Origin: Gammaproteobacteria bacterium
GTDB taxonomy: Bacteria > Pseudomonadota > Gammaproteobacteria > Chromatiales > Chromatiaceae
NCBI GenBank assembly: GCA_020445415.1
Contig: JAGRGP010000015.1
Location: 1-64,000 of the forward strand
DNA: 64,000 nucleotides
Direction of reading: 5' to 3'
Shown one piece after another: positions 32,307 to 42,498 of this stretch. The notes beneath the pieces were generated by a model that was given only the letters and a program-made list of their open reading frames with translations, had not been told where the DNA came from and made no database searches. How positions within the stretch are numbered: the first letter of the stretch is position 1; every line of letters begins with the position of its first letter. The position numbers and the translations under genes are program-made.

Positions 32307-33350
32307 GAGTATCTGAATCTCAATCCCTACCCAACATGTAAGTATATGATCTTCACCAAGCGAATTCACAGTGGTGCGCATTATCCCCCAAACTCTCTGT
32401 GGGCTAGGGTTGCTCAATAGATAGCAACAGGTTGAGCAGCTACTTCCTGGGAGGCATGACTTAAGGCAATTAAACACACTTTTAAAGGAGGAAATTTGTT
32501 TCTTTTTAGCATAGAATAGGATTCAGGTTCCCTGGCTAAAGATTAAGAGAAAAGGAAAAAGTAGCGGACTAGACGTAATAAAGGGATCCATTTCTCGCCT
32601 TTCAACCGTATCGGTATTCAGCAAGAACTGATAGCCGGTGGGCGAACGGTTAAGTTGAGTTTGAAAACCTTGGAGTTGCAGATCAAGGGACTGGCAGGTG
32701 AATGTGTGGCCGATTCACCTGCGTAAGCCAGCTATTGGCTGACCCGTTGGTCCTGTTCCAAGGTGCGCAGAGACCTTGGAGATCGGTTTTATTCTATAAT
32801 CGGTTGGGGACCTTGTTTCAGCATTTATTACAGCCGATTCAGGGGAAGATCTTGATAGGTCGGTTTGACTGGTTACAGCAGTGGTTTGTTGGTTCTACAG
32901 TAACGGACCGAACCGGTATATGCACCGGTTCGCTTAGGTGCCGTGTGTGTCTTGAGCGAAGGTGTTGATATTTATGGCTTTGCTCCGGAACACAGTCAGT
33001 AACATCAGCATGCCGGAAAAGTTCCTCCTTCCGCAGTACCCCGCTCGATTATCCCACCCCCTCGTTTACCGAACTCCCTTTTGGATAATTGGGCGTTTCG
33101 GTGGTACTGGGTCCGCCGGTCGGAGGCTTTTTCGTCAGCGGGCCGATGGGATTCTTGTAAACGTGGCAGCCCCTATCCGAAGCGGAAGCGGACATTTGGA
33201 ACGGAGTTTGGGAATTTGGACGGCTACAAGAAGTGAAAGCGTGGGGTATTTAACACGATGAGCGTGACTAAAATCTACCCCGTTGGAACTACTACATCAG
33301 AAAAATGGGTTTTATCGAAGAAATCGGGAGGGAATCGTTTCATTCTCGGG

Positions 33351-33396
33351 CAATATTGTCGAAATATTGGCATACAAGGAAGAAAAGAATGCCAAT
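33351..33396 (+). promoter_or_regulatory. Nested inverted repeats upstream of rpfF
   Basis: CAATATT (33351-33357) / AATATTG (33363-33369) and ATTGGCAT (33366-33373) / ATGCCAAT (33389-33396) are perfect short inverted repeats that overlap, so only one hairpin can form at a time. They lie 126-171 bases before the rpfF start codon, a position suited to operator or leader function. Function not shown. Confidence 0.35.
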
Positions 33397-33444
33397 GGAA
33401 CTAGTAGGCCGTTTCTCGCGGAGGAACAGCGGATTCGGGAATAG

Positions 33445-33507
33445 GGGTGTCAACTGACACCCAAGTGGCTTGGTTAAGCAGATGGCGCTGATCGTTTGGT
33501 CAGCGCC
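33445..33507 (+). promoter_or_regulatory. Tandem hairpins in rpfF leader
   Basis: Two perfect 8-bp stems stand in tandem: GGGTGTCA / TGACACCC (33445-33452 and 33455-33462, two-base gap so the tip would melt or act as an operator) and GGCGCTGA / TCAGCGCC (33484-33491 and 33500-33507). The second ends just before the ribosome-binding site GGGAG (33509-33513). They may control translation of rpfF or bind a regulator; no T tract follows, so they are unlikely to be terminators. Confidence 0.45.
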
Positions 33508-33521
33508 TGGGAGAGACAACA

Positions 33522-34415
33522 ATGTTAGGTCAAAGAAAAGAGATCACGGTTACCCAGTTTACTCACCTGGACCTTGAGTTCGAGCCTGAACACAATATGG
33601 TTTGGTCAAGATTCAAGTATCCTGGCCGCCCCTGCATGAGCACTGACCTGGTGAAGGATGTAAGCAGGGCACAAAAGATAATTGCCGATCAGGCGAGGAG
33701 CCAATACGAGCATAAGCTGCCGTTCAGATTAAAATATCAGGTGTTCTGCTCGGAGTTACCGGGTGTTTTCAATCTGGGAGGAGATCTCGCCTATTTTATC
33801 CGCCTGATACGAGATAAAAATCGGATGGCCCTCTTTGACTACGCTAAGGAGTGCATCGATATTTTGTATCGAAACGCGACTAACTATGAAATTCCGTTCA
33901 CCACCATCGCGCTTGTTCAGGGCGAAACCTTGGGTGGGGGATTCGAGGCGGCCCTGTCGGCTAATCTTATTATTGCGGAAAAGGGTGCGAGATTTGGGTT
34001 TCCGGAAACGGTGTTCGGTATGTTCCCGGGTATGGGTGCGTTTAATTTTCTTGCCCGGAAGGTAGCGCCCGGACTAGCCAAGCGAATGATAGCTAGCGGC
34101 AAGGTCTACACTGCAGAGGAACTCTACGATATGGGTGTAGTTGATATCCTGGTGCCGGACGGAAACGGAAAGGAGGCCGTGTACGACTACATTCAACATC
34201 AACGTAATCGAAGCACCGGCTTTTATGGACTGGATCGGGTTATCGAGCAGTTCAACCCGTTATCGTACAAGGAGCTTCTGGATGTAATAACGCTCTGGGT
34301 CGATACGGCTATGCAGTTGTCGGATAAGAACATCCGGCTTATGGAGTATCTGGTACGCGCCCAGCAGAAACGTTGGTGCCGTGAAGAGGTTAAACTGGTC
34401 TCGATGGCCAGCTGA
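33522..34415 (+). CDS. rpfF: DSF synthase RpfF-like (crotonase family)
   Basis: RpfF enzymes use one active site first to dehydrate 3-hydroxyacyl-ACP to the cis-2-enoyl chain and then to release the free acid, the diffusible signal factor. The 297-residue product matches the family (289 in Xanthomonas). Conserved stretches include GVFNLGGDLAYFIRLIRDKN, VQGETLGGGFEAAL with the first catalytic Glu at 142, FGFPETVFGMFPGMGAF with the second Glu at 162, and the C-terminal LWVDTAMQL...RLMEYLVRAQ. The two glutamates correspond to Xcc E141 and E161. GGGAG sits eight bases before ATG 33522. It converges on rpfC. Ordinary enoyl-CoA hydratase is unlikely, because GGDLAYF and the C-terminal match are RpfF-specific. 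Confidence 0.92.
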   Translation: MLGQRKEITVTQFTHLDLEFEPEHNMVWSRFKYPGRPCMSTDLVKDVSRAQKIIADQARSQYEHKLPFRLKYQVFCSELPGVFNLGGDLAYFIRLIRDKNRMALFDYAKECIDILYRNATNYEIPFTTIALVQGETLGGGFEAALSANLIIAEKGARFGFPETVFGMFPGMGAFNFLARKVAPGLAKRMIASGKVYTAEELYDMGVVDILVPDGNGKEAVYDYIQHQRNRSTGFYGLDRVIEQFNPLSYKELLDVITLWVDTAMQLSDKNIRLMEYLVRAQQKRWCREEVKLVSMAS

Positions 34416-34468
34416 CAAGGAGGTCAGTTATAGAACCACGACTTGATCTGGCAGGTGTACCTGATGCT

Positions 34469-34511
34469 GAGGGATGTGTGCCGTGGGAGGTAGTGGCGGC
34501 TCACATCCCTC
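34469..34511. terminator. Hairpin between convergent rpfF and rpfC
   Basis: A perfect 10-bp stem GAGGGATGTG (34469-34478) / CACATCCCTC (34502-34511), extended by an inner GCCG/CGGC pairing, lies between the two convergent genes. There is no T tract on either side, so its role as a terminator is uncertain; it could also stabilise the 3' end. A perfect Shine-Dalgarno-like AAGGAGGT (34419-34426) lies before it without a nearby start codon. Confidence 0.4.
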
Positions 34512-34564
34512 GATGCATTGTGTGAGTCGATCGTGGTCGAGTTCTCAACCTGTGGTTCCGGTAA

Positions 34565-37117
34565 TTAGTGGATCGCGGGCCGGGAGTAGTGAAGTGACTC
34601 TGCCAAGGCCAATTTGGCCCTGTCCAATGCGGTAGTCAATGCTTTTACATGTCCAGGCCCTTCGGCCCCTAGCCTGGGCTCAGTTACCTGTTCCGCCAAG
34701 ATGGCAAGCTCTGAAAGCTCTTGTAATCCCAGATTGAGGCATGATCCCTTCAATGCGTGGGCGCTTGAAGTGAACCTGTCGAGGTCGCGGTTCGTTACCG
34801 CATCCGCCATGCTTTTTATCAGGCCTTCCCCTTCGTCCACCATGTTCTCGTACATTCGGGACAGGAAGCCCTGATCGGGCGCCAATTGGATGACGTCTGC
34901 AAGCACATGCTGGTCAAGGACCGTGGGATCACCGGAAACCACCTCGTTCGTTAGCGCCACATTGCTTTTTATTTCTTCATCCGGACTGTCTAGTAACCGG
35001 CTAGATGTAGCCCTTGAGATGGTCTGAAGTAGTTTCAAGGATGGCACGGGCTTGGTGAGAAAGTACTCGATACCGGCATTTTTACACGCATTTCGCGCGT
35101 TGGTGGTGGCGTTCGCGGTGAGCATGATAAAGGGTACCGGGTGGTCATCACTGGCATGCGCAAACCGGTACATCCGAAAGGCGTCGAGTCCGCCCAGAAC
35201 TGGCATATGCATATCGACGATAACAACATCATACCGTTCCCGCTCGAGTGCATCGAGTACCTGTTGACCGTTTTCGACGAGATGGTGCTGATAGCCTGCC
35301 TGCTCGAGGATGCGTCCGGTAACCAGCCGATTTACACTGTTGTCTTCAGCCACCAGTACCTTGATCGGGTGAATGGTATTGTGGTTGCGGACGAAGCGCT
35401 CCGACAGATTGATAACCCGGTCATCGTCGCCACCTACCCTGGAAGCATGTAAGGCATTAAATAACAGTGCCTTATCAAATGGCTGTCTTATCTTGTGAAT
35501 GACATTAGAGATATCCTTCAAGTCGTCTGGATTGATTGGGGTCTGCTCAGTTTCAACGACCAGTATTTTGATGTCAGGTAGAGAAAGGTCGGTACTTAGC
35601 GCAGACAGGAAATTCATGATTTCATCGTCAAACGCGATATCGTCGAGGATAATTACCTCGTACGGCGTGGTGCTGTTAGGGTTCTTAATGAGCAGACGTA
35701 ACGCCTCACGGGCGCTGGTTACATCACTATAAGGAACCCCCCATCCCAGAAGTGTATGTGAAATATCGGTATGCACGCCGGAACTTCTACAGAGTCTCAT
35801 GACCCTGCATTCTTGAACTTGGCGTATCTCATCATCCGCGATTAGTTCTGGCTGTAGTTGAAATTCAATGTCAAACCAGAAAGTTGAACCAATGCCCTGT
35901 GTACTTTGGATGCCGATGCGTCCTCCCATCAGCTCGACCAATTGACGTGCGATGGAGGTTCCCAAGCCTGTCCCCCCAAAGCGCCGGGTGGTGCTCTCGT
36001 CGGCTTGTGCAAAGTTTTCAAATATTCTTTTTTGCGCTTCGGGACTGATACCGATGCCGGTATCGGTAATCTCGAAACGTATCAAGGAGTGGTACTCCTG
36101 GTTCCTGATGCTATGGCAGCGAAGCTCTACCGAGCCTTTTTCTGTAAATTTAAGCGCATTGCTAACTAAGTTTATCAATACTTGCCGGAGATGATGGGGG
36201 TCGCCAACCAAGCGATAGGGCGTATCCAGACCGATATGGGAAACCAGTCTGAGGCGTTTGTTCTCCGCTTCCGGGGAAAACATTCGCAAAGTAGAATTAA
36301 TCAATGCATGAAGGTCGAAGTTGGTGTTTTCCATCACCACCTTTCCCGCTTCGATCTTGGAGATATCAAGAATATCTTCGATTAATTTGAGAAGATTCTT
36401 TCCTGATGCATTAATGATATCGACGTACTCCCTTTCCTCTAACCCTAGCCGACAGGACGTCAACAGTTCTCCTGTGCCAATGATTCCGTTTAGCGGAGTC
36501 CGGATCTCATGGCTCATACGAGCCAGAAACTCGCTCTTCGCACGGCTGGCCTCTTCTGCCCGCGAGCGTTCGAGATGAAGCCTCCGGATCAATACTGCGG
36601 CATAGCCTGGAAGGGCAATGAGCGCGATCAATAGACTGATTCCAAGCCCGAGGTGCTCTTGCCAGAAACTGTTTTTGGTCAGTACGTAAGTAAAACCGAC
36701 TACCGACAATACCCCGGACAGGTACAGGTACTTTTCGCCGTAGCGAAACCCGTTTCCAAATGTCACCCACAGGTAGACGGTAAACCAAGGAGCTCCGAGT
36801 TCTCCCAGTTGAGCTATAACATAGCTAAGGCCCCCGACATCCATTACGATGCCGATTAAGCGCCTGATCAAAGATGCTTTTGGGCGGAAGGCTGTAGAAA
36901 GTAAAATGAGAACCGAGAAGCCAAGAAAGGCGCTGAGCAGTTCGACACCCGAGACCCAAGATGCGTGGTCGGCGTGGTCCGAGGGCTCACTATGGATCAG
37001 GTAACCGAGTAGGCAGAGCGAAATAACAACCCGCACCGAGGCCTGTTCAAGTTCGGTGGTCCCGTACTTATTGAACCTGCCCAGGAACAAAAAAGGTTTG
37101 TTAAATGTGGCTCTCAT
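34565..37117 (-). CDS. rpfC: RpfC-like hybrid sensor histidine kinase
   Basis: Membrane kinase that senses DSF and feeds phosphate to RpfG. The 850-residue protein (ATG 37117; TTG 37120 also possible) has a short N-terminal cytoplasmic/periplasmic segment, five hydrophobic helices (~28-45, 56-78, 86-105, 110-148, 157-178), a HisKA H-box SHEIRTPLNG (His 203), N-box LINLVSNALKF, G-boxes DTGIGIS and GGTGLGTSIA, a degenerate receiver (~435-560), a complete receiver (~583-695; Asp in VVIVDMHMP, 635; Lys 689) and a C-terminal Hpt domain (SSAHALKGS, His 787). Xanthomonas RpfC (~726 residues) lacks the extra pseudo-receiver. It diverges from the acp gene. Confidence 0.9.
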   Translation of the reverse strand: MRATFNKPFLFLGRFNKYGTTELEQASVRVVISLCLLGYLIHSEPSDHADHASWVSGVELLSAFLGFSVLILLSTAFRPKASLIRRLIGIVMDVGGLSYVIAQLGELGAPWFTVYLWVTFGNGFRYGEKYLYLSGVLSVVGFTYVLTKNSFWQEHLGLGISLLIALIALPGYAAVLIRRLHLERSRAEEASRAKSEFLARMSHEIRTPLNGIIGTGELLTSCRLGLEEREYVDIINASGKNLLKLIEDILDISKIEAGKVVMENTNFDLHALINSTLRMFSPEAENKRLRLVSHIGLDTPYRLVGDPHHLRQVLINLVSNALKFTEKGSVELRCHSIRNQEYHSLIRFEITDTGIGISPEAQKRIFENFAQADESTTRRFGGTGLGTSIARQLVELMGGRIGIQSTQGIGSTFWFDIEFQLQPELIADDEIRQVQECRVMRLCRSSGVHTDISHTLLGWGVPYSDVTSAREALRLLIKNPNSTTPYEVIILDDIAFDDEIMNFLSALSTDLSLPDIKILVVETEQTPINPDDLKDISNVIHKIRQPFDKALLFNALHASRVGGDDDRVINLSERFVRNHNTIHPIKVLVAEDNSVNRLVTGRILEQAGYQHHLVENGQQVLDALERERYDVVIVDMHMPVLGGLDAFRMYRFAHASDDHPVPFIMLTANATTNARNACKNAGIEYFLTKPVPSLKLLQTISRATSSRLLDSPDEEIKSNVALTNEVVSGDPTVLDQHVLADVIQLAPDQGFLSRMYENMVDEGEGLIKSMADAVTNRDLDRFTSSAHALKGSCLNLGLQELSELAILAEQVTEPRLGAEGPGHVKALTTALDRAKLALAESLHYSRPAIH

Positions 37118-37141
37118 CAAGTGAACTTAGATATGCCTAGT

Positions 37142-37177
37142 AGTATAATTGACGATTATTCATAGAAAAACTTTATT
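37142..37177. promoter_or_regulatory. Divergent promoter region rpfC / acp
   Basis: On the plus strand TTGACG (37149-37154) and TTTATT (37172-37177) are 17 bases apart and would start transcription just before the acp ATG (37193). On the minus strand TATACT (complement of 37142-37147) can be the -10 of rpfC. Both lie in the 75-base gap, so one regulator could control signal sensing and acyl-chain genes together. The -35 for rpfC is weak. Confidence 0.45.
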
Positions 37178-37192
37178 TTACAAGAAATTGCC

Positions 37193-37438
37193 ATGACAAA
37201 TAGTGTCGAGTACGAAGTTATTCGCGCCATCGCCAGACAAAAGCGTTTGGATCCGGACCAGATTCATTGCACTTCGATACTTGAAAAGCTGGGCATCACA
37301 TCATTAGACGCCATTACGATAGTCTATGATGTAGAAGAAATTTTTGATGTGGAGATCGACAACGATAAGCTGGGAGAGCTTGTTTCCGTTCAAGATATCA
37401 TCGACGGGGTAACCCAGCTTATCGAAGCAAAAGGCTAG
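37193..37438 (+). CDS. Dedicated acyl carrier protein
   Basis: An 81-residue acidic ACP. The phosphopantetheine-attachment serine is in LGITSLDAITIVYDVEE (Ser 37), where the common DSL is TSL; the helix-II acidic VEEIFDVEI motif that docks enzymes follows. This is not the housekeeping AcpP (usually DSL DTVE), so it is a specialised carrier, likely paired with the following beta-ketoacyl synthase. Its stop overlaps the KAS start by one base. Its role in making or loading the RpfF substrate is an inference. Confidence 0.9.
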   Translation: MTNSVEYEVIRAIARQKRLDPDQIHCTSILEKLGITSLDAITIVYDVEEIFDVEIDNDKLGELVSVQDIIDGVTQLIEAKG

Positions 37439-38652
37439 TGTCCAGAACAGTTGTGGTCACTGGGTTGGGGGCGGTCTCGGGCCTGGGCCTGACTGTTCCG
37501 CAGTTTTGGAAGAGTCTGGTAGAAGGACGATCAGGATTTACCGAACTCAAGGATACCGCTGGCTGGGATAGCCGTTTGAAGGTTCGTTTTGGGGCCCGGG
37601 TTCCGGGATACGATCCGCTTCGTTTTTTTTCGGCGGACGAGATTCCGCTACTCGACCGGCATACGCAGTTTGCGTTGATTGCCGCCAAAGAAGCGGTAGC
37701 GGACGCAGATCTTGATGATCAGCACCTGTTTTCGGCAGGGGTGGTACTGGGTACTGGTTGCGGAGGCAAGGAGACCGACGAAGAAACCTACTGCGCACTC
37801 TACCAGCGAGGCAAGTCCCGGGTTCATCCGCTTACCATCCCCCGAGGTATGCCTAGCGCGGCGGCCAGTCAACTCAGTATGAAGCTGGCTATCACAGGTC
37901 CGGTGTTTTCCATTTCGAGTGCTTGTTCGTCTGCGAACCACGCCGTGATTCAGAGTCAGATGATGATTCGAGCGGGCTTGGTTGACATTGTCCTAGCTGG
38001 GGGCACCGATGCCCCTTTTACCTTCGGGTTGCTAAAATCGTGGGAGGCGATGCGGGTTCTGGCATCCGATACCTGCCGGCCGTTTTCTGCGAATAGAAAC
38101 GGCCTGATATTGGGGGAGGGCGCGGGTATTCTAGTTTTGGAATCCTTTGAACACGCGCTTTCCCGGGGAGCCAGGATCTACGGTGAAATAGCCGGATGTG
38201 GCATGTCGGCGGATGCGGCGCATATTACAGTCCCATCCGTCGATGGCGCCGCTAAGGCAATCAACTATGCCCTGCAGGATGGGGGTATCGAACCGGCGCA
38301 AGTGGATTACGTTAATGCCCATGGTACCGGTACAAAAATTAACGATCCGTTTGAGACTAGGATACTGCACCAGGTATTTGGCGACCATGCAAATCGGCTG
38401 ATGGTTTCCTCCACGAAATCCATGCATGGACATACATTAGGCGCTGCTGGCGCGCACGAACTGATTGCGACCCTGCTGGCCATTCGGGACTCGCATATTC
38501 CACCTACCGCCAATTTTACCGAGCCGGGAGAAGGGTGCGATCTGGACTATGTGCCCAACCAGTCCCGGGACTCGAGTATTAATGTGGCCATTTCCAACTC
38601 CTTTGCTTTCGGTGGATTAAATGCCGTTATCGCCGTTCGTCGTTTGGACTGA
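37438..38652 (+). CDS. Beta-ketoacyl-ACP synthase (FabF/KAS II type)
   Basis: Condenses malonyl-ACP with an acyl chain to lengthen fatty acids or polyketides. The 404-residue product has a complete Cys-His-His triad: Cys 163 in SISSACSSANHA, His 295 in VNAHGTGTKIND, and His 332 in KSMHGHTLGAAGAHE. It starts with RTVVVTGLGAVSGLG, typical of FabF. The GTG start (37438) overlaps the acp stop. Being translated with the ACP, it probably elongates a dedicated chain, plausibly for the RpfF-made signal. It converges with the methyltransferase gene. Confidence 0.92.
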   Translation: MSRTVVVTGLGAVSGLGLTVPQFWKSLVEGRSGFTELKDTAGWDSRLKVRFGARVPGYDPLRFFSADEIPLLDRHTQFALIAAKEAVADADLDDQHLFSAGVVLGTGCGGKETDEETYCALYQRGKSRVHPLTIPRGMPSAAASQLSMKLAITGPVFSISSACSSANHAVIQSQMMIRAGLVDIVLAGGTDAPFTFGLLKSWEAMRVLASDTCRPFSANRNGLILGEGAGILVLESFEHALSRGARIYGEIAGCGMSADAAHITVPSVDGAAKAINYALQDGGIEPAQVDYVNAHGTGTKINDPFETRILHQVFGDHANRLMVSSTKSMHGHTLGAAGAHELIATLLAIRDSHIPPTANFTEPGEGCDLDYVPNQSRDSSINVAISNSFAFGGLNAVIAVRRLD

Positions 38653-38713
38653 CGCGGGAGGGGAATGCCTTCAGCCGGGGGTGTCCTTGGTGCGAAGTTG
38701 GTGTGTAACCCGA

Positions 38714-39775
38714 TTAGGTCTTCTTACGGAAGACAAAATGCCCGTTTCCAAATAGCTCACCCTTGGACGGCAGAAAGCAGGCCTTGCAAAGGACAAAATA
38801 ATCATTCCAGTACTTGGCTTCTGTTTCGTCCTTGATTGCACTGCCGTAGAGCGTGTCCATATTGTGCCAGAGCCGCTTGTGCCATTCGTCGATCGTTTTC
38901 CAGTAGTTCATCCCATTGATAAACCAGCTTTTTGACAAGCGCATGAAGCGGTCTTGACGGCGGATGATTTCAAATGGCCATATCTTCCCACCCGGAAAGT
39001 AGGTGCCGATCATGGTCTTGTCGTCATGCAGGAACTGCGGGACGATTAGGCGGGACGCCACCATGTGAAGAAAAAACAACCCGCCCGGCTTCAGTAATTT
39101 GTCGATGAGTTCAAAGACCGCGTCGAGGTTATTGATATGTTCAAAACACCCGATAGAAAAAACTCTGTCGTATTCTCTGTCACCTAATTCACTCAGCGGA
39201 ACTTCACTAAAATCGCCTTGGATAAGACGCAGCTTACCCCGGCTTATCGGGTGATTTGTATTGGCGCGGCATGACTCGATAAAGTCGATTTGATCGGGGC
39301 TTGGTGTGATGCTGGTGATATCAACCTTGGGAAAGGCTGTGAACAGATAGGTTTCCAGAGGGCCGTATCCACACCCGATATTGAATATCTTTTCGTCGCC
39401 ATGGATTTCGGCACGCCGACAAACCAACTCGAACTTGTTCCGCTCCGCTTCTTCGAGACTCAGTTTGGAAGAAGCAACATCGTGCGCGGTTTCACCATAG
39501 TAAGCCATGGTGTAGGCCATGAATTCGTGATCGAGGAAACCGCTGAAGGGTGTTACATGGGCGTTGTAGTGATTTTCAATCAGTGCCCGGGTATCTTTCC
39601 ACATCGGCCCCCGGTTTGTGGTGACGGTGTCTAGAGCTTGACTTTCTGGGTTATGGAGTAACCTCTGATACTCCCGGCTAAAATAACGGCCAAGGTGTCC
39701 TTCATAGCGAATAAGTTCGGGTGTGCCATGGGCGAAAATACCTGCCTCACGAAGGCTGGCTGATACGCCAATCAT
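38714..39775 (-). CDS. CFA-synthase-like S-adenosylmethionine methyltransferase
   Basis: Member of the cyclopropane/mycolic-acid methyltransferase family, which add a methylene or methyl group across an acyl-chain double bond. The 353-residue product has the SAM-binding motif FNIGCGYGPLE (131-141), the active-site E-H pair in CFEHINN (E212), the His of FFLHMV (H237) and a tyrosine in NGMNYWKT (Y291), which match E. coli Cfa E239, H266 and Y317. The Cfa C139 position (SCAYW) is Met here (TMAYY, M90), so the product may differ from a cyclopropane. GGAG precedes ATG 39775. It is downstream of the kinase-less RpfC paralogue, and substrate choice (lipid or signal) is unknown. Confidence 0.85.
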   Translation of the reverse strand: MIGVSASLREAGIFAHGTPELIRYEGHLGRYFSREYQRLLHNPESQALDTVTTNRGPMWKDTRALIENHYNAHVTPFSGFLDHEFMAYTMAYYGETAHDVASSKLSLEEAERNKFELVCRRAEIHGDEKIFNIGCGYGPLETYLFTAFPKVDITSITPSPDQIDFIESCRANTNHPISRGKLRLIQGDFSEVPLSELGDREYDRVFSIGCFEHINNLDAVFELIDKLLKPGGLFFLHMVASRLIVPQFLHDDKTMIGTYFPGGKIWPFEIIRRQDRFMRLSKSWFINGMNYWKTIDEWHKRLWHNMDTLYGSAIKDETEAKYWNDYFVLCKACFLPSKGELFGNGHFVFRKKT

Positions 39776-39792
39776 TGTTTCATACTCCAGAT

Positions 39793-41385
39793 CTAGTCTT
39801 TTCTGTAGTCCAGTTCTCGAAGGTCTTTCTCCCTGATGTAATTTTGCAACGCATCATTCGATAGCCGGCAGCATTCTGTCAATTGTTGTAGCAGATCAAG
39901 TGCATTTTGGCGGAATGCCTCGGAGGGGATGTGACTGGCCGCAGTTCCCAGTTCGAATAATCGAATCGTTCCCAGACTACCGGCACTGTCTTTGATTGCA
40001 TGGCCGAGATCACGGAAACGGGAGAGATCGCCCTTTTTGATAGCAAGTTCCATCTGGGTAAGGAAATGCCGGTTGTCACGGTTAAAGCTGTCTATCAGAT
40101 CTGATAGGAAAGCGGTATTCCCCCCGAGATTCTCCAACTCGGCAAGCCGATTCCGATCCAAGGCGGTATCGGCGGTATGCCCACCGACAAAACCGGTGGT
40201 CTGATGAAGGTGTTGACGGTGATAATTTTGCCGGGCTTGGCCTTGGTCACCACTCTCCAAAACGACCTTTTTCAGAACATTCATGATTGTCTTAGGATCA
40301 GCACCTGCTTCCAAGATGGCATTGACCCCAGATTCCTCACACCGTTGGCGGTCGCTATCGCCAGGATTGTGCAACAGCAATATGAACGGAGTGCGTTGCT
40401 TGTCTATTCGGGTGAAGCGGTACAGATTGAAAGCCTCGATACCACTTATTTCCCGAAGTTCCCGGGACACAATCGCCAGGTCAAACTGGTGACTGTCCAG
40501 AGCGTCCAGAACCCGTGCTCCAGAATCGACCAGAAAGACCTGGTGCCCTTGCTGTTGAAGAACAGCGCGTATCCGTTGCTGTTCTCCCCGGCGGTTTTCT
40601 GCAAGCAGAATACTGAGCGGCGGTGATGTCGTGGAAGCAGTATAGCGATCAATGATCTTGGCAACCCCGGGTCGCGGTTCAAGGGGAGCGGAGCGCAGGT
40701 TGTGAAGGGCGTCGAACAAAAGGGTTTTGTTCAGGGGCACCGGGACGAGTCTTGTGTAGCCCAGCCGGTTTAATCCCCCCTCCTCGATTTCCGCAGGCCG
40801 GGCACCAATCAGAATAAGGTAGATGTCCTGTAGGTGCTGTTCGGATCGAAGTGCAGCGCTGAACTGGCTTGCGTCCATGTCGAATAGCCCTCGGTCCACA
40901 ATAACCACATGGTAAGGGGAATGCGCTTCAGACGCCCGCAGCAACTCATAGAACGAGCGGGCCGCAGTGCTGCATACCGTGGGTGTTATGCCCCATGAAT
41001 CCAAATGCCTCAAGATTCCGTGACGATCGGATTTATCATTGGTCAAGACGAGAATTCGTTGATCGGAAATCTTGAGTAGAGACTGCGGGCCTTCTGGAGA
41101 AGGGGGCAACGGGGAGGGTGGGCTGTACCGGTTCGAATACTTAGGCGTACTTTCCTTGGCTGGCTTATTCCCGGGTTCGTTGTGCTCCTCTGATTTGTAT
41201 CCCGAATCGCTGACTAGCCAGAGTATGACGGCTATAAGTGAAGTTGCCGATATCAAGAGTGTGTCAAGACCCGATGAGGGCAACCAATTATCACCGAAAA
41301 CAAACAGCAAGACTATTCCCAGTGCGCACACAGCCCCGGCGAAACGCCTACATAACATCCATATCCCGGGACTCATGGGTGTCAT
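39793..41385 (-). CDS. Kinase-less RpfC paralogue: TM, two pseudo-receivers, Hpt
   Basis: From ATG 41385 (GAGGA seven bases upstream) the protein has 530 residues; an alternative ATG 41427 adds 14. Two hydrophobic segments (~9-30 and ~40-57) are followed by a Pro-rich linker and two receiver-like domains (~108-235, ~257-375) that align with the receiver part of the neighbouring RpfC (LLFDALHNLR / LLFNALHASR; EAFNLYRFTR / DAFRMYRFAH). HisKA and ATPase domains are absent. In the second receiver the Asp pair reads AENR instead of AEDN, the phosphoacceptor Asp is Ser (AIVSRELRE), and the Lys is replaced (ILEAGADP), so it cannot be phosphorylated in the normal way. The C-terminal Hpt keeps its His (LGHAIKDSAGSLG, His 462). 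It probably modulates or shuttles in RpfC signalling (inference). Confidence 0.85.
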   Translation of the reverse strand: MTPMSPGIWMLCRRFAGAVCALGIVLLFVFGDNWLPSSGLDTLLISATSLIAVILWLVSDSGYKSEEHNEPGNKPAKESTPKYSNRYSPPSPLPPSPEGPQSLLKISDQRILVLTNDKSDRHGILRHLDSWGITPTVCSTAARSFYELLRASEAHSPYHVVIVDRGLFDMDASQFSAALRSEQHLQDIYLILIGARPAEIEEGGLNRLGYTRLVPVPLNKTLLFDALHNLRSAPLEPRPGVAKIIDRYTASTTSPPLSILLAENRRGEQQRIRAVLQQQGHQVFLVDSGARVLDALDSHQFDLAIVSRELREISGIEAFNLYRFTRIDKQRTPFILLLHNPGDSDRQRCEESGVNAILEAGADPKTIMNVLKKVVLESGDQGQARQNYHRQHLHQTTGFVGGHTADTALDRNRLAELENLGGNTAFLSDLIDSFNRDNRHFLTQMELAIKKGDLSRFRDLGHAIKDSAGSLGTIRLFELGTAASHIPSEAFRQNALDLLQQLTECCRLSNDALQNYIREKDLRELDYRKD

Positions 41386-41439
41386 TTGTTTATCCTCGTG
41401 TTGGAAAGAAAATTCCACCATCACCATTAAGCGGGGGAG

Positions 41440-42498
41440 CTAACGGCTGATCACCTTGTTGTTGTCGCCGAACTGATGTCGTATCACCATGACTTGATCA
41501 AGGCGACTGAAGAAGGCGTCTATACAGTTTGGGTCAAAATGAAATCCCCGTTGTTGCCGCATGTACTCCAAGGTACGATCCATTGACCAAGCTTTTTTGT
41601 AAGGTCTTTCCGATAACAGAGCGTCGAACACATCTGCAACAGCCGCCGTTCTTGCCTCGATCGGAATTGCCTCTCCCGCCGCACCGTTGGGGTATCCCCT
41701 ACCGTCGAATCTTTCGTGGTGACTGAGAGCAATTATAGCCCCTGATTTTAGAAAACAGGATGGGCTATCCCGCAATATCTCATAGCCGATACGGGTATGA
41801 ACTTGCATAACACTCCATTCGGTGCTGGAAAGTTTCCCGGGTTTCAGAAGTACCTGGTCCGGGACACCGATCTTGCCAATATCGTGCATCGGCGCGGCAT
41901 GCCGTATTATGTTACAGGTATCTCGATCGAGACCCATTTCATCCGCTACAAGAAAGGCATACTCGGCCATCCTAATTACGTGATTGCCGGTTTCTTCATC
42001 ACGGTATTCACCCGCCTTCGCGAGCCTAAGCAGGGTCTCCTTTTCTCTCAGTTCAAGTTGGTTGGTCTTGGTGTAAACTTCTTGTTCGAGCCAACGGGCA
42101 CGGTCCTTGATGATCTGCTGCTGCTGCCGCAACTGCAACAAATTTCGGCAACGGGCGCGACATTCGTAATGATCGATGGGTTTGGAGAGAAAATCTGTAG
42201 CGCCTGCTTCCAATGCTTTGTAGCGTACCGACTTGTCATCCACACAGGTGATGATAACGATTGGCACATCCATACAAGATGGAATCTGCCGAAGCCACTG
42301 GGTGAATGCCACACCGTCCATGACCGGCATCTTGTAGTCGGTTATCACCAGATCGTGACTGTTTCGCTTGGCCCACTCAAGCGCTTTTACGGGATCAGCG
42401 AAACTCTCCACATGAATGTTCTTATCAATGGAGCGAATCAGCTCTTCCAGAATCATCCGGCTGATCGATTGATCATCGATGATTAATACAGTTGACAT
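41440..42498 (-). CDS. rpfG: RpfG-like HD-GYP response regulator (c-di-GMP phosphodiesterase)
   Basis: Output of DSF signalling: a receiver domain controls c-di-GMP hydrolysis to GMP. The 352-residue product has a complete receiver (IIDDQ, Asp 54 in VITDYKMPVMDG, Lys in FLSKP) and an HD-GYP domain with MHDIGKIGVPD (His-Asp 205-206) and HHERFDGRGYPNG (GYP 268-270), i.e. the metal and catalytic residues are all present. A helical linker joins the domains. It is followed in the same direction by the RpfC paralogue and methyltransferase, likely one transcript. Confidence 0.93.
   Translation of the reverse strand: MSTVLIIDDQSISRMILEELIRSIDKNIHVESFADPVKALEWAKRNSHDLVITDYKMPVMDGVAFTQWLRQIPSCMDVPIVIITCVDDKSVRYKALEAGATDFLSKPIDHYECRARCRNLLQLRQQQQIIKDRARWLEQEVYTKTNQLELREKETLLRLAKAGEYRDEETGNHVIRMAEYAFLVADEMGLDRDTCNIIRHAAPMHDIGKIGVPDQVLLKPGKLSSTEWSVMQVHTRIGYEILRDSPSCFLKSGAIIALSHHERFDGRGYPNGAAGEAIPIEARTAAVADVFDALLSERPYKKAWSMDRTLEYMRQQRGFHFDPNCIDAFFSRLDQVMVIRHQFGDNNKVISR

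Follow-up and report, generated by a model that had tools for sequence, protein, structure and literature searches.

We analyzed a 64,000-nucleotide stretch of DNA (the window: positions 1 to 64,000 of contig JAGRGP010000015.1, assembly GCA_020445415.1, Chromatiaceae) and found in it a cluster of seven genes that is a real and conserved variant of diffusible signal factor (DSF) signaling. The cluster places an acyl carrier protein (ACP), a FabF-like ketosynthase (KAS), and an S-adenosylmethionine (SAM)-dependent methyltransferase (MT) among the genes for an RpfF-like DSF synthase, an RpfC-like hybrid kinase, an RpfG-like response regulator, and a REC-Hpt protein. With a probability of about 0.6, we read this locus as a DSF-family quorum-sensing system with a private ACP and KAS, whose signal would be a cis-2-enoic acid that is C-methylated or cyclopropanated. 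Comparison with relatives provided strong evidence that RpfF is linked to ACP and KAS in a conserved way, with ACP and KAS as the tight partners of RpfF and MT as the variable one.

Conservation of the cluster among relatives

We surveyed 210 genomes of the window's family and found this KAS (at least 615 bits) in 35 of them. RpfF was present in 32 of the 35 and in 59 of the 175 family genomes lacking this KAS (Fisher p 1e-10, from a hand tally that ignores kinship), so RpfF can do without the ACP-KAS-MT set. The KAS genomes without RpfF were G058, G072, and G190, and in each of these the contig carrying ACP and KAS stops beside the cluster. MT orthologues stood clearly above paralogues, with 30 of the 210 genomes scoring at least 230 bits and the next best scoring 138. 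RpfF occurred in 27 of the 30 MT-bearing genomes versus 64 of the other 180 (Fisher p 2e-8, tallied in the same way), and MT was present in 30 of the 35 KAS-bearing genomes. RpfF, RpfC, ACP, KAS, MT, and RpfG are also all present in two other families (genomes G289 and G566).

A scan of genome contigs with the MT alignment yielded 38 loci, of which 36 hold orthologues (36 to 49% identity) and 2 hold cyclopropane fatty acid (CFA) paralogues (23 to 25%). The hosts include Sedimenticola species, a Thiotrichaceae, an Ectothiorhodospiraceae, a Hyphomicrobiales assembly, and many further Gammaproteobacteria. Of the 33 loci with both MT and KAS in view, 30 have them side by side, and gene order and orientation vary. 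RpfF lies near MT in 25 of the 36 orthologue loci; among the 11 others, 10 leave the contig inside the cluster or no more than 0.7 kb from it, and at the last one (L040) the contig continues past MT for 3.4 kb with other sequence. Genome G108 has MT at the contig coordinates of L040, with KAS and RpfF on a separate contig that ends 0.3 kb from KAS. The original prediction had named occurrence of the set independently of rpfF as the finding that would speak against it. For ACP and KAS the association with RpfF held, the exceptions being cut beside the cluster; for MT the outcome was mixed, with the loci above on one side and, on the other, genome G072, where MT occurs without RpfF and apart from KAS. 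These counts leave out L021 and L022 (the same loci as L060 and L070), the paralogues L073 and L074, and L150 and L152 (lengths and scores equal to those of L064 and L046). Trees and alignments exclude rows beyond length limits, such as the fused MT of L048 and the split MT of L024.

The key residues of the cluster proteins are conserved in aligned relatives. Glu142 and Glu162 of RpfF, named as catalytic in the original prediction, correspond to the glutamates of GGFE and LPE in the Xanthomonas RpfF structure 3m6m (191 bits), and the pair is invariant in 26 of 26 aligned RpfFs; the protein scored 340.3 bits against PRK08788, above the cut-off of 177. The RpfC-like kinase retains His204 (HisKA), Asp636 (REC), and His788 (Hpt) in 17 of 17 rows, and hydropathy, the only membrane evidence here, gave three hydrophobic segments at its N terminus. 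The HD, HHE, and GxGYP motifs of RpfG are intact in 14 of 14 rows. By domains and hydropathy, the pair consists of a membrane sensor joined to HisKA, HATPase, REC, and Hpt domains, beside a REC-HD-GYP protein and beside rpfF, in agreement with the predicted RpfC-like kinase and RpfG-like regulator. The further claim that an ACP, a KAS with an intact Cys-His-His triad, and a CFA-like SAM methyltransferase are interleaved with the rpf genes was borne out. Ser37 of ACP is conserved in 33 of 33 rows, and KAS has Cys163 in 34 of 35 rows (the other has a gap) and His295 and His332 in all 35. KAS scored 443.5 bits against TIGR03150, the FabF equivalog, under its cut-off of 493.75, and 435.4 bits against the subfamily NF005589, over its cut-off of 387.

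The prediction had placed its six genes correctly, as judged from the list of open reading frames, but had omitted the seventh, the REC-Hpt protein. Its N terminus has two hydrophobic segments, and kinase domains are absent from the protein. The position of the REC Asp is Ser in the window and Asp in 7 of 11 rows, and the Hpt His is conserved in 11 of 11. A longer relative (L021) carries a stretch resembling the membrane input region of RpfC, which recalls Xanthomonas RpfH, a protein likened to the RpfC input domain in the available text of PMC4504480.

The cluster (Table 1) is flanked by a YbaK-like gene on one side and a rhodanese/ThrH pair on the other. The KAS gene starts with GTG and overlaps the ACP stop codon by 1 base. 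On the minus strand the order is rpfG-recHpt-MT, and because the intergenic gaps are only 12 and 17 bases, a single operon is suggested. The description of the island as self-contained was overstated, since no ketoreductase, malonyl transferase, or phosphopantetheinyl transferase is among the seven genes and the source genome (G000; 3.8 Mb, 185 contigs) has 7 more Ketoacyl-synt_C and 5 more PP-binding matches elsewhere. Two neighborhoods of this genome, the C41 and C47 stretches (L164/L165), bear some likeness to the cluster: contig C41 has another ACP-KAS-CFA neighborhood, and contig C47 has one with three KAS-like genes and a remote likeness. The C41 set was rejected, being only distantly similar (KAS 206 bits, CFA 71 bits).

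Table 1. Features of the window cluster and of other loci (positions are those of the window unless a locus is named)
Feature	Length (aa)	Position	Strand	Basis or remark
RpfF-like crotonase-fold DSF synthase	297	33522-34415	+	Pfam ECH_1; PRK08788; alignment to 3m6m
RpfC-like hybrid kinase	851	34565-37120	-	Pfam HisKA/HATPase/REC/Hpt; hydrophobic N-terminal sensor
ACP, Ser37; apparently cluster-dedicated	81	37193-37438	+	Pfam PP-binding
FabF-like KAS	404	37438-38652	+	Pfam ketoacyl-synt N and C
CMAS/CFA-family SAM methyltransferase (MT)	353	38714-39775	-	Pfam CMAS
REC-Hpt protein without kinase domains	544	39793-41427	-	Pfam REC and Hpt
RpfG-like REC and HD-GYP response regulator	352	41440-42498	-	Pfam REC and HD_5
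PlsC-like acyltransferase		L068 6232-7014
PlsC-like acyltransferase		L054 7510-8262
PlsC-like acyltransferase		L059 4601-5353
PlsC-like acyltransferase		L056 3690-4451
PlsC-like acyltransferase		L055 6226-6990
PlsC-like acyltransferase		L058 10927-11844
Radical-SAM protein in the MT slot of G052	503	L143 4078-5589	+	Resembles B12-binding radical-SAM families
REC-Hpt and MT in one open frame	802	L048 1207-3615	+
CFA synthase gene beside RpfF		L034 11272-12477

Twelve RpfF loci outside the set (L025 to L036) had no such KAS and no MT orthologue within the stretches examined. RpfC and RpfG stand beside RpfF in 7 of the 12, L027 also has RpfC and a cut RpfG, and L030 (G037) has an ACP-like match adjoining RpfF with no KAS or MT match in its stretch. 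Weaker KAS matches in G015, G209, and G040 (530 to 582 bits) were rejected as members of the set: no RpfF lies in the stretches examined, and their neighbors, judged by eye, are LpxB/LpxD-like in two and a desaturase in one. G015 and G040 have RpfF on a different contig. An MT-like protein of G558 (177 bits) was also rejected, the other cluster genes being absent from the surrounding 19.9 kb. Seven genomes of genus g8 (G009, G141, G142, G143, G150, G156, and G158) have a CFA-synthase-like gene no more than 1.5 kb from RpfF, and L034, one of the twelve loci above, shows a CFA synthase (Table 1); neither this KAS nor an MT orthologue was found in the seven genomes. Genus g8 is possibly a separate origin of the pairing between RpfF and a CMAS-family enzyme.

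Two kinds of receiver beside one core

The loci differ in the receivers that accompany the core. In type A, as in the window, the core is joined by RpfC and often by RpfG. In type B, which comprises 14 of the 36 loci, the stretch examined yielded no orthologue of RpfC or RpfG, and receiver-domain matches occurred only in L061 and L069. In 11 of the 14 type-B loci, MT or KAS has a GGDEF-EAL protein as its neighbor, whose gene is oriented back toward MT, or toward KAS in L054 and L059. The GGDEF motif is present in all 11 of these proteins and the EAL/ESL motif in 10; the L056 copy is cut. The L068 protein, the one member analyzed by hydropathy, has a hydrophobic N terminus with no Pfam match there and no PAS hit, and a profile comparison of the type-B hydrophobic N terminus with the RpfC sensor found no likeness (probability 0.2%). 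L069 has a seven-transmembrane histidine kinase and a LuxR-type regulator in place of the GGDEF-EAL protein, and two type-B loci reach a contig edge. Locus L064, on a 3.8-kb contig, was left untyped in the counts and labeled A in the MT trees.

The RpfF tree placed types A and B on opposite sides of a branch with support 100/99, and 12 of 15 RpfFs labeled as outside the set fell on the B side. Five rows from contigs ending near RpfC (L139, L141, L146, L147, and L156) were labeled A in this tree; a KAS was found for only two of their genomes, on another contig (G217 and G055), and none was found for G222, G057, and G182. Identity to the window protein was 34 to 39% for type-B and 46 to 66% for type-A RpfF, 55 to 60% and 59 to 65% for KAS, and 36 to 44% and 39 to 48% for MT. 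In type B, MT is co-directional with ACP and KAS. Because the same core pairs with a GGDEF-EAL protein in place of RpfC and RpfG, the core tracks RpfF and not a single receptor. Mainly because one core has different receivers, we assign ACP, KAS, and MT to synthesis of the signal over response to it, a role that the sequences make likely.

This distribution bears on the alternative that MT acts on membrane lipid or bulk acyl chains, with the DSF system standing beside a co-regulated lipid-remodeling unit outside signal synthesis, which we consider unlikely. CFA synthases use phospholipid, according to the available text of PMC11387697, and the window MT sits in the apparent rpfG-recHpt operon, apart from acp-kas. 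Six of the 14 type-B clusters have a gene for a PlsC-like acyltransferase nearby, in two different positions (Table 1), which may hint at lipid use. In genus g55, MT is separated from ACP and KAS, with RpfF-RpfC-ACP-KAS and no adjoining MT in G071 and MT-RecHpt-RpfG apart from KAS in G072. However, ACP and KAS accompany RpfF under both receiver types, MT is adjacent to KAS in nearly all loci that show both, and it runs with ACP-KAS in type B. Moreover, MT scores far under the CFA equivalog cut-off (below), and contig C41 of the source genome encodes a CFA-like protein distinct from MT.

Chemistry and mobility of the methyltransferase

In an alignment to structure 6bqc, MT residues Glu212, His237, and Tyr291 match Glu239, His266, and Tyr317 of Escherichia coli CFA synthase (CFAS), which the available text of PMC11387697 names as bicarbonate ligands. 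As regards a counterpart of the N-terminal lipid-binding domain of CFA synthases, the sequence match begins at CFAS residue 112 to 118, and the fold alignment begins at chain residue 63. Glu212 is kept in 34 of 37 MT rows, His237 in 36, and Tyr291 in all 37. Where E. coli CFAS has Cys139, MT has Met in 34 of 37 rows. MT scored 103.6 bits against PRK11705, the CFA equivalog, which has a cut-off of 400.

A confident AlphaFold2 model of MT had a mean predicted local distance difference test score (pLDDT) of 92. Its closest folds were plant N-methyltransferases (Z 30 to 38), followed by CFA and mycolic cyclopropane synthases (Z 26 to 29); the benzylisoquinoline N-methyltransferase fold 9dg6 gave Z 38.1 and a root mean square deviation of 2.4 over 322 aligned residues. 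VIA-align rows of the structure search were taken as resemblance only, and the absence of a family from them as no evidence against it. Because plant N-methyltransferases outrank CFA synthases in fold likeness, the reaction cannot be read from the fold alone. Coclaurine N-methyltransferase (6gkv) has Glu at the position of CFAS His266, where 36 of 37 MT rows carry His, and this Glu may mark benzylisoquinoline N-methyltransferases, a reading from a single alignment. As MT keeps the Glu-His-Tyr set of CFAS, while coclaurine N-methyltransferase has Glu for His, the alignment favors alkene chemistry that would give a methyl branch or a cyclopropane. Besides the fold order, two sets of replacements weigh against such chemistry throughout the family: Cys replaces Glu212 in L049, L050, and L052, which form one MT subclade, and Asn replaces His237 in L064. 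We think it improbable that MT instead O-methylates the acid, to a methyl ester or another derivative, so that the signal would combine DSF with the PhcB-type methyl 3-hydroxy-acid chemistry of Ralstonia. The available text on that system describes a quorum signal of this kind, a methyl ester that the methyltransferase PhcB forms and a histidine kinase detects, but the conserved Glu-His-Tyr set of MT corresponds to the CFAS bicarbonate site.

The place of MT in the cluster varies. It lies between ACP and KAS in L054 and L059, between RpfC and ACP in L060, and between RpfC and RpfF in L045; in L038, 4.5 kb parts MT from KAS, with AAA ATPase- and subtilase-like genes (assigned by eye) that we judged to be unrelated. 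The MT tree rejected a single type-B clade (approximately unbiased test, p-AU 5e-61), and a second clade test on a trimmed type-B set, picked after the tree was seen, gave p 0.001. Type-A L060 stands among the type-B MTs, and type-B L054, L059, and L066 stand on the A side. These results show that MT is exchanged between receiver types. In one case, genome G052, a radical-SAM protein occupies the MT slot (Table 1) of a cluster that is otherwise complete, RpfG-RecHpt-KAS-ACP-RpfC-RpfF.

No MT was detected in G217, G218, and G220, three genomes of one genus that retain RpfF, RpfC, ACP, and KAS, so it is dispensable in some versions of the pathway. This absence favors an ordinary DSF system in which ACP and KAS control no more than chain length and flux, with MT as a drifting passenger, as do G059 and G060, which have RpfF, RpfC, RecHpt, and RpfG with no ACP, KAS, or MT in the stretch examined. 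We give this explanation little credence, however, as MT accompanies KAS in most KAS-bearing family genomes, its catalytic residues are kept in most rows, and L060 has a type-B-clade MT at a different spot of a type-A cluster.

Three MT frames are irregular. REC-Hpt and MT share one open frame in L048 (Table 1), which may be a natural fusion or a sequencing slip, and an 812-aa frame of G056 is possibly the same locus. The MT of G021 (L024) is split over contigs C41 and C254, probably by an assembly break.

A more specific possibility, which we hold tentatively, is that MT is a dialect gene. It would set the methyl or cyclopropane mark and would pass between lineages, disappear, or give way to a radical-SAM protein; the sensor of whichever receptor is present would shift with it while the kinase, the GGDEF-EAL protein, RpfF, and KAS stay. 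Rejection of the type-B clade in the MT tree, an outlying sensor in L060, and sensor-MT correlations in both types support it. In an exploratory look at 17 loci, identity of the RpfC sensor followed that of MT (Spearman 0.72) more than that of its own kinase (0.57). The sensor-MT prediction was written after this look, and because the later type-A tests share most of its loci, they do not count as independent; the test in type B was a new one. Partial Mantel tests were controlled with the kinase, REC-Hpt, KAS, and RpfF; in those of type A, only the last 355 residues of the L048 MT were used, and the G055 contigs L156 and L157 formed one table row with their sequences unjoined. Among 17 dereplicated type-A loci, the sensor-MT partial r was 0.43 (p 0.004), and kinase-MT, sensor-KAS, and sensor-RpfF were all nonsignificant. 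The REC-Hpt part of RpfC also followed MT over all 22 loci (r 0.16, p 0.028), and the REC-Hpt protein, a fast-evolving neighbor, showed no such link in 9 loci. Type B gave a sensor-MT r of 0.385 (p 0.0098, 10 loci).

Several results speak against this dialect gene. The type-A partial r falls to 0.08 once L060 is omitted, so the type-A signal is essentially one natural case. L060 is the one type-A locus with a type-B-clade MT, its RpfC sensor deviates most (mean residual -12.2 points, against -3.7 for the next), and its kinase is 77 to 79% identical to those of L070 and the window. The sensor-MT link was nonsignificant at cuts of 65% and 60%, where sensor-RpfF (p 0.019 at 65%) and sensor-KAS (p 0.029 at 60%) gave low values. 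In the 7 type-B loci that also have KAS and RpfF, p rose to 0.13 to 0.16. L054/L059 and L062/L063 have similar sensors (49 to 54%) and dissimilar MTs (39 to 41%), and L058 resembles L053, L055, and L061 in MT and not in sensor. Covariation of MT and receptor is a lead that comes largely from one genome.

Proposed pathway and known systems

In the proposed pathway, KAS would elongate an acyl chain on the cluster ACP, and a housekeeping ketoreductase would yield 3-hydroxyacyl-ACP. RpfF would dehydrate this to cis-2-enoyl-ACP and then free the acid. MT would methylate or cyclopropanate a cis double bond farther along the chain, most likely before release from ACP. The RpfC-type kinase would detect the secreted acid and pass phosphate via Hpt steps to RpfG, and c-di-GMP would fall. 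We infer the order of steps, ACP as the MT substrate, the product, and its role as a signal from the sequences; methylation of the signal chain is probable on the same basis. The original prediction had left a choice between a modified DSF and a membrane-lipid change in response to the signal, and we favor the first by inference and the lipid alternative less.

The absences and separations of MT described above weigh against this pathway, as do four further observations. RpfF scored 230.4 bits against the NCBIfam equivalog NF053515, below the cut-off of 550. No RpfF was found in the G072 assembly (84% complete), where MT is grouped with RecHpt and RpfG, the side on which KAS is expected holds roughly 9 kb of other genes, and KAS is on another contig. 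G058, which is rated 99% complete, likewise yielded no RpfF; a contig of 3.8 kb carries its cluster. Finally, the source genome has a PF00676 (E1-alpha) match in a 340-aa frame, so a Xanthomonas-like branched-chain route could also operate.

The locus resembles that of Xanthomonas in its RpfF Glu pair, convergent rpfF and rpfC, RpfC-type hybrid kinase, and HD-GYP RpfG (layout as given in the available text of PMC4504480). In Xanthomonas campestris pv. campestris, the methyl branch of DSF comes from leucine or valine via FabH and the general fatty acid synthesis cycle, as far as the available texts of PMC4542539 and PMC5011732 go, whereas here ACP, KAS, and a SAM methyltransferase lie within the locus. 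RpfCG and RpfR are described as two core DSF perception pathways in the accessible part of PMC4504480. The same part covers Burkholderia rpfR, and our type-B relatives similarly pair RpfF with a GGDEF-EAL protein. Burkholderia RpfR is a PAS-GGDEF-EAL protein, whereas the type-B L068 protein has a hydrophobic N terminus and no PAS hit, and its locus has ACP, KAS, and MT. An RpfF homologue amid lipid genes has a precedent in Pseudomonas aeruginosa dspI, which stands among genes implicated in fatty acid metabolism; the available text of PMC4504480 names no ACP, KAS, or methyltransferase there.

CFAS and CmaA1 share with MT the CMAS Pfam family, the Glu/His/Tyr bicarbonate ligands, and the fold (Z 28 to 29), but MT falls under the CFA equivalog cut-offs and is closer in fold to plant N-methyltransferases. 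The fatty acid synthesis (FASII) clusters of anammox bacteria place a SAM methyltransferase beside ACP and fatty acid synthesis genes, and that enzyme is reported to bind the ACP of its own cluster (available text of PMC9821293), so action of MT on an ACP-bound chain has a precedent. The anammox clusters differ in that they also have radical SAM enzymes, AmxMT1 is without the bicarbonate site, and the same text mentions no RpfF or signaling genes. Searches of the open-license PubMed Central literature turned up no rpf locus described as carrying an ACP, KAS, and methyltransferase of its own, which is weak evidence of absence, and there we found no paper joining Sedimenticola with diffusible signal factor or joining diffusible signal factor, cyclopropane fatty acid, and rpfF. 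The rpf genes were reported earlier in sulfur oxidizers (PMC4136832; Thiobacillus in PMC4504480), with no mention of such a set in the available texts.

If true, a DSF locus equipped with an ACP, a ketosynthase, and a SAM methylase of its own would mark its signal by another route than that of Xanthomonas and would give a handle on joint change of signal and receptor specificity. An MT that is kept, swapped, or missing beside two kinds of receptor suggests how signal dialects could arise. The family also offers CMAS enzymes that may act on acyl-ACP, and the system is testable in cultured Sedimenticola strains.

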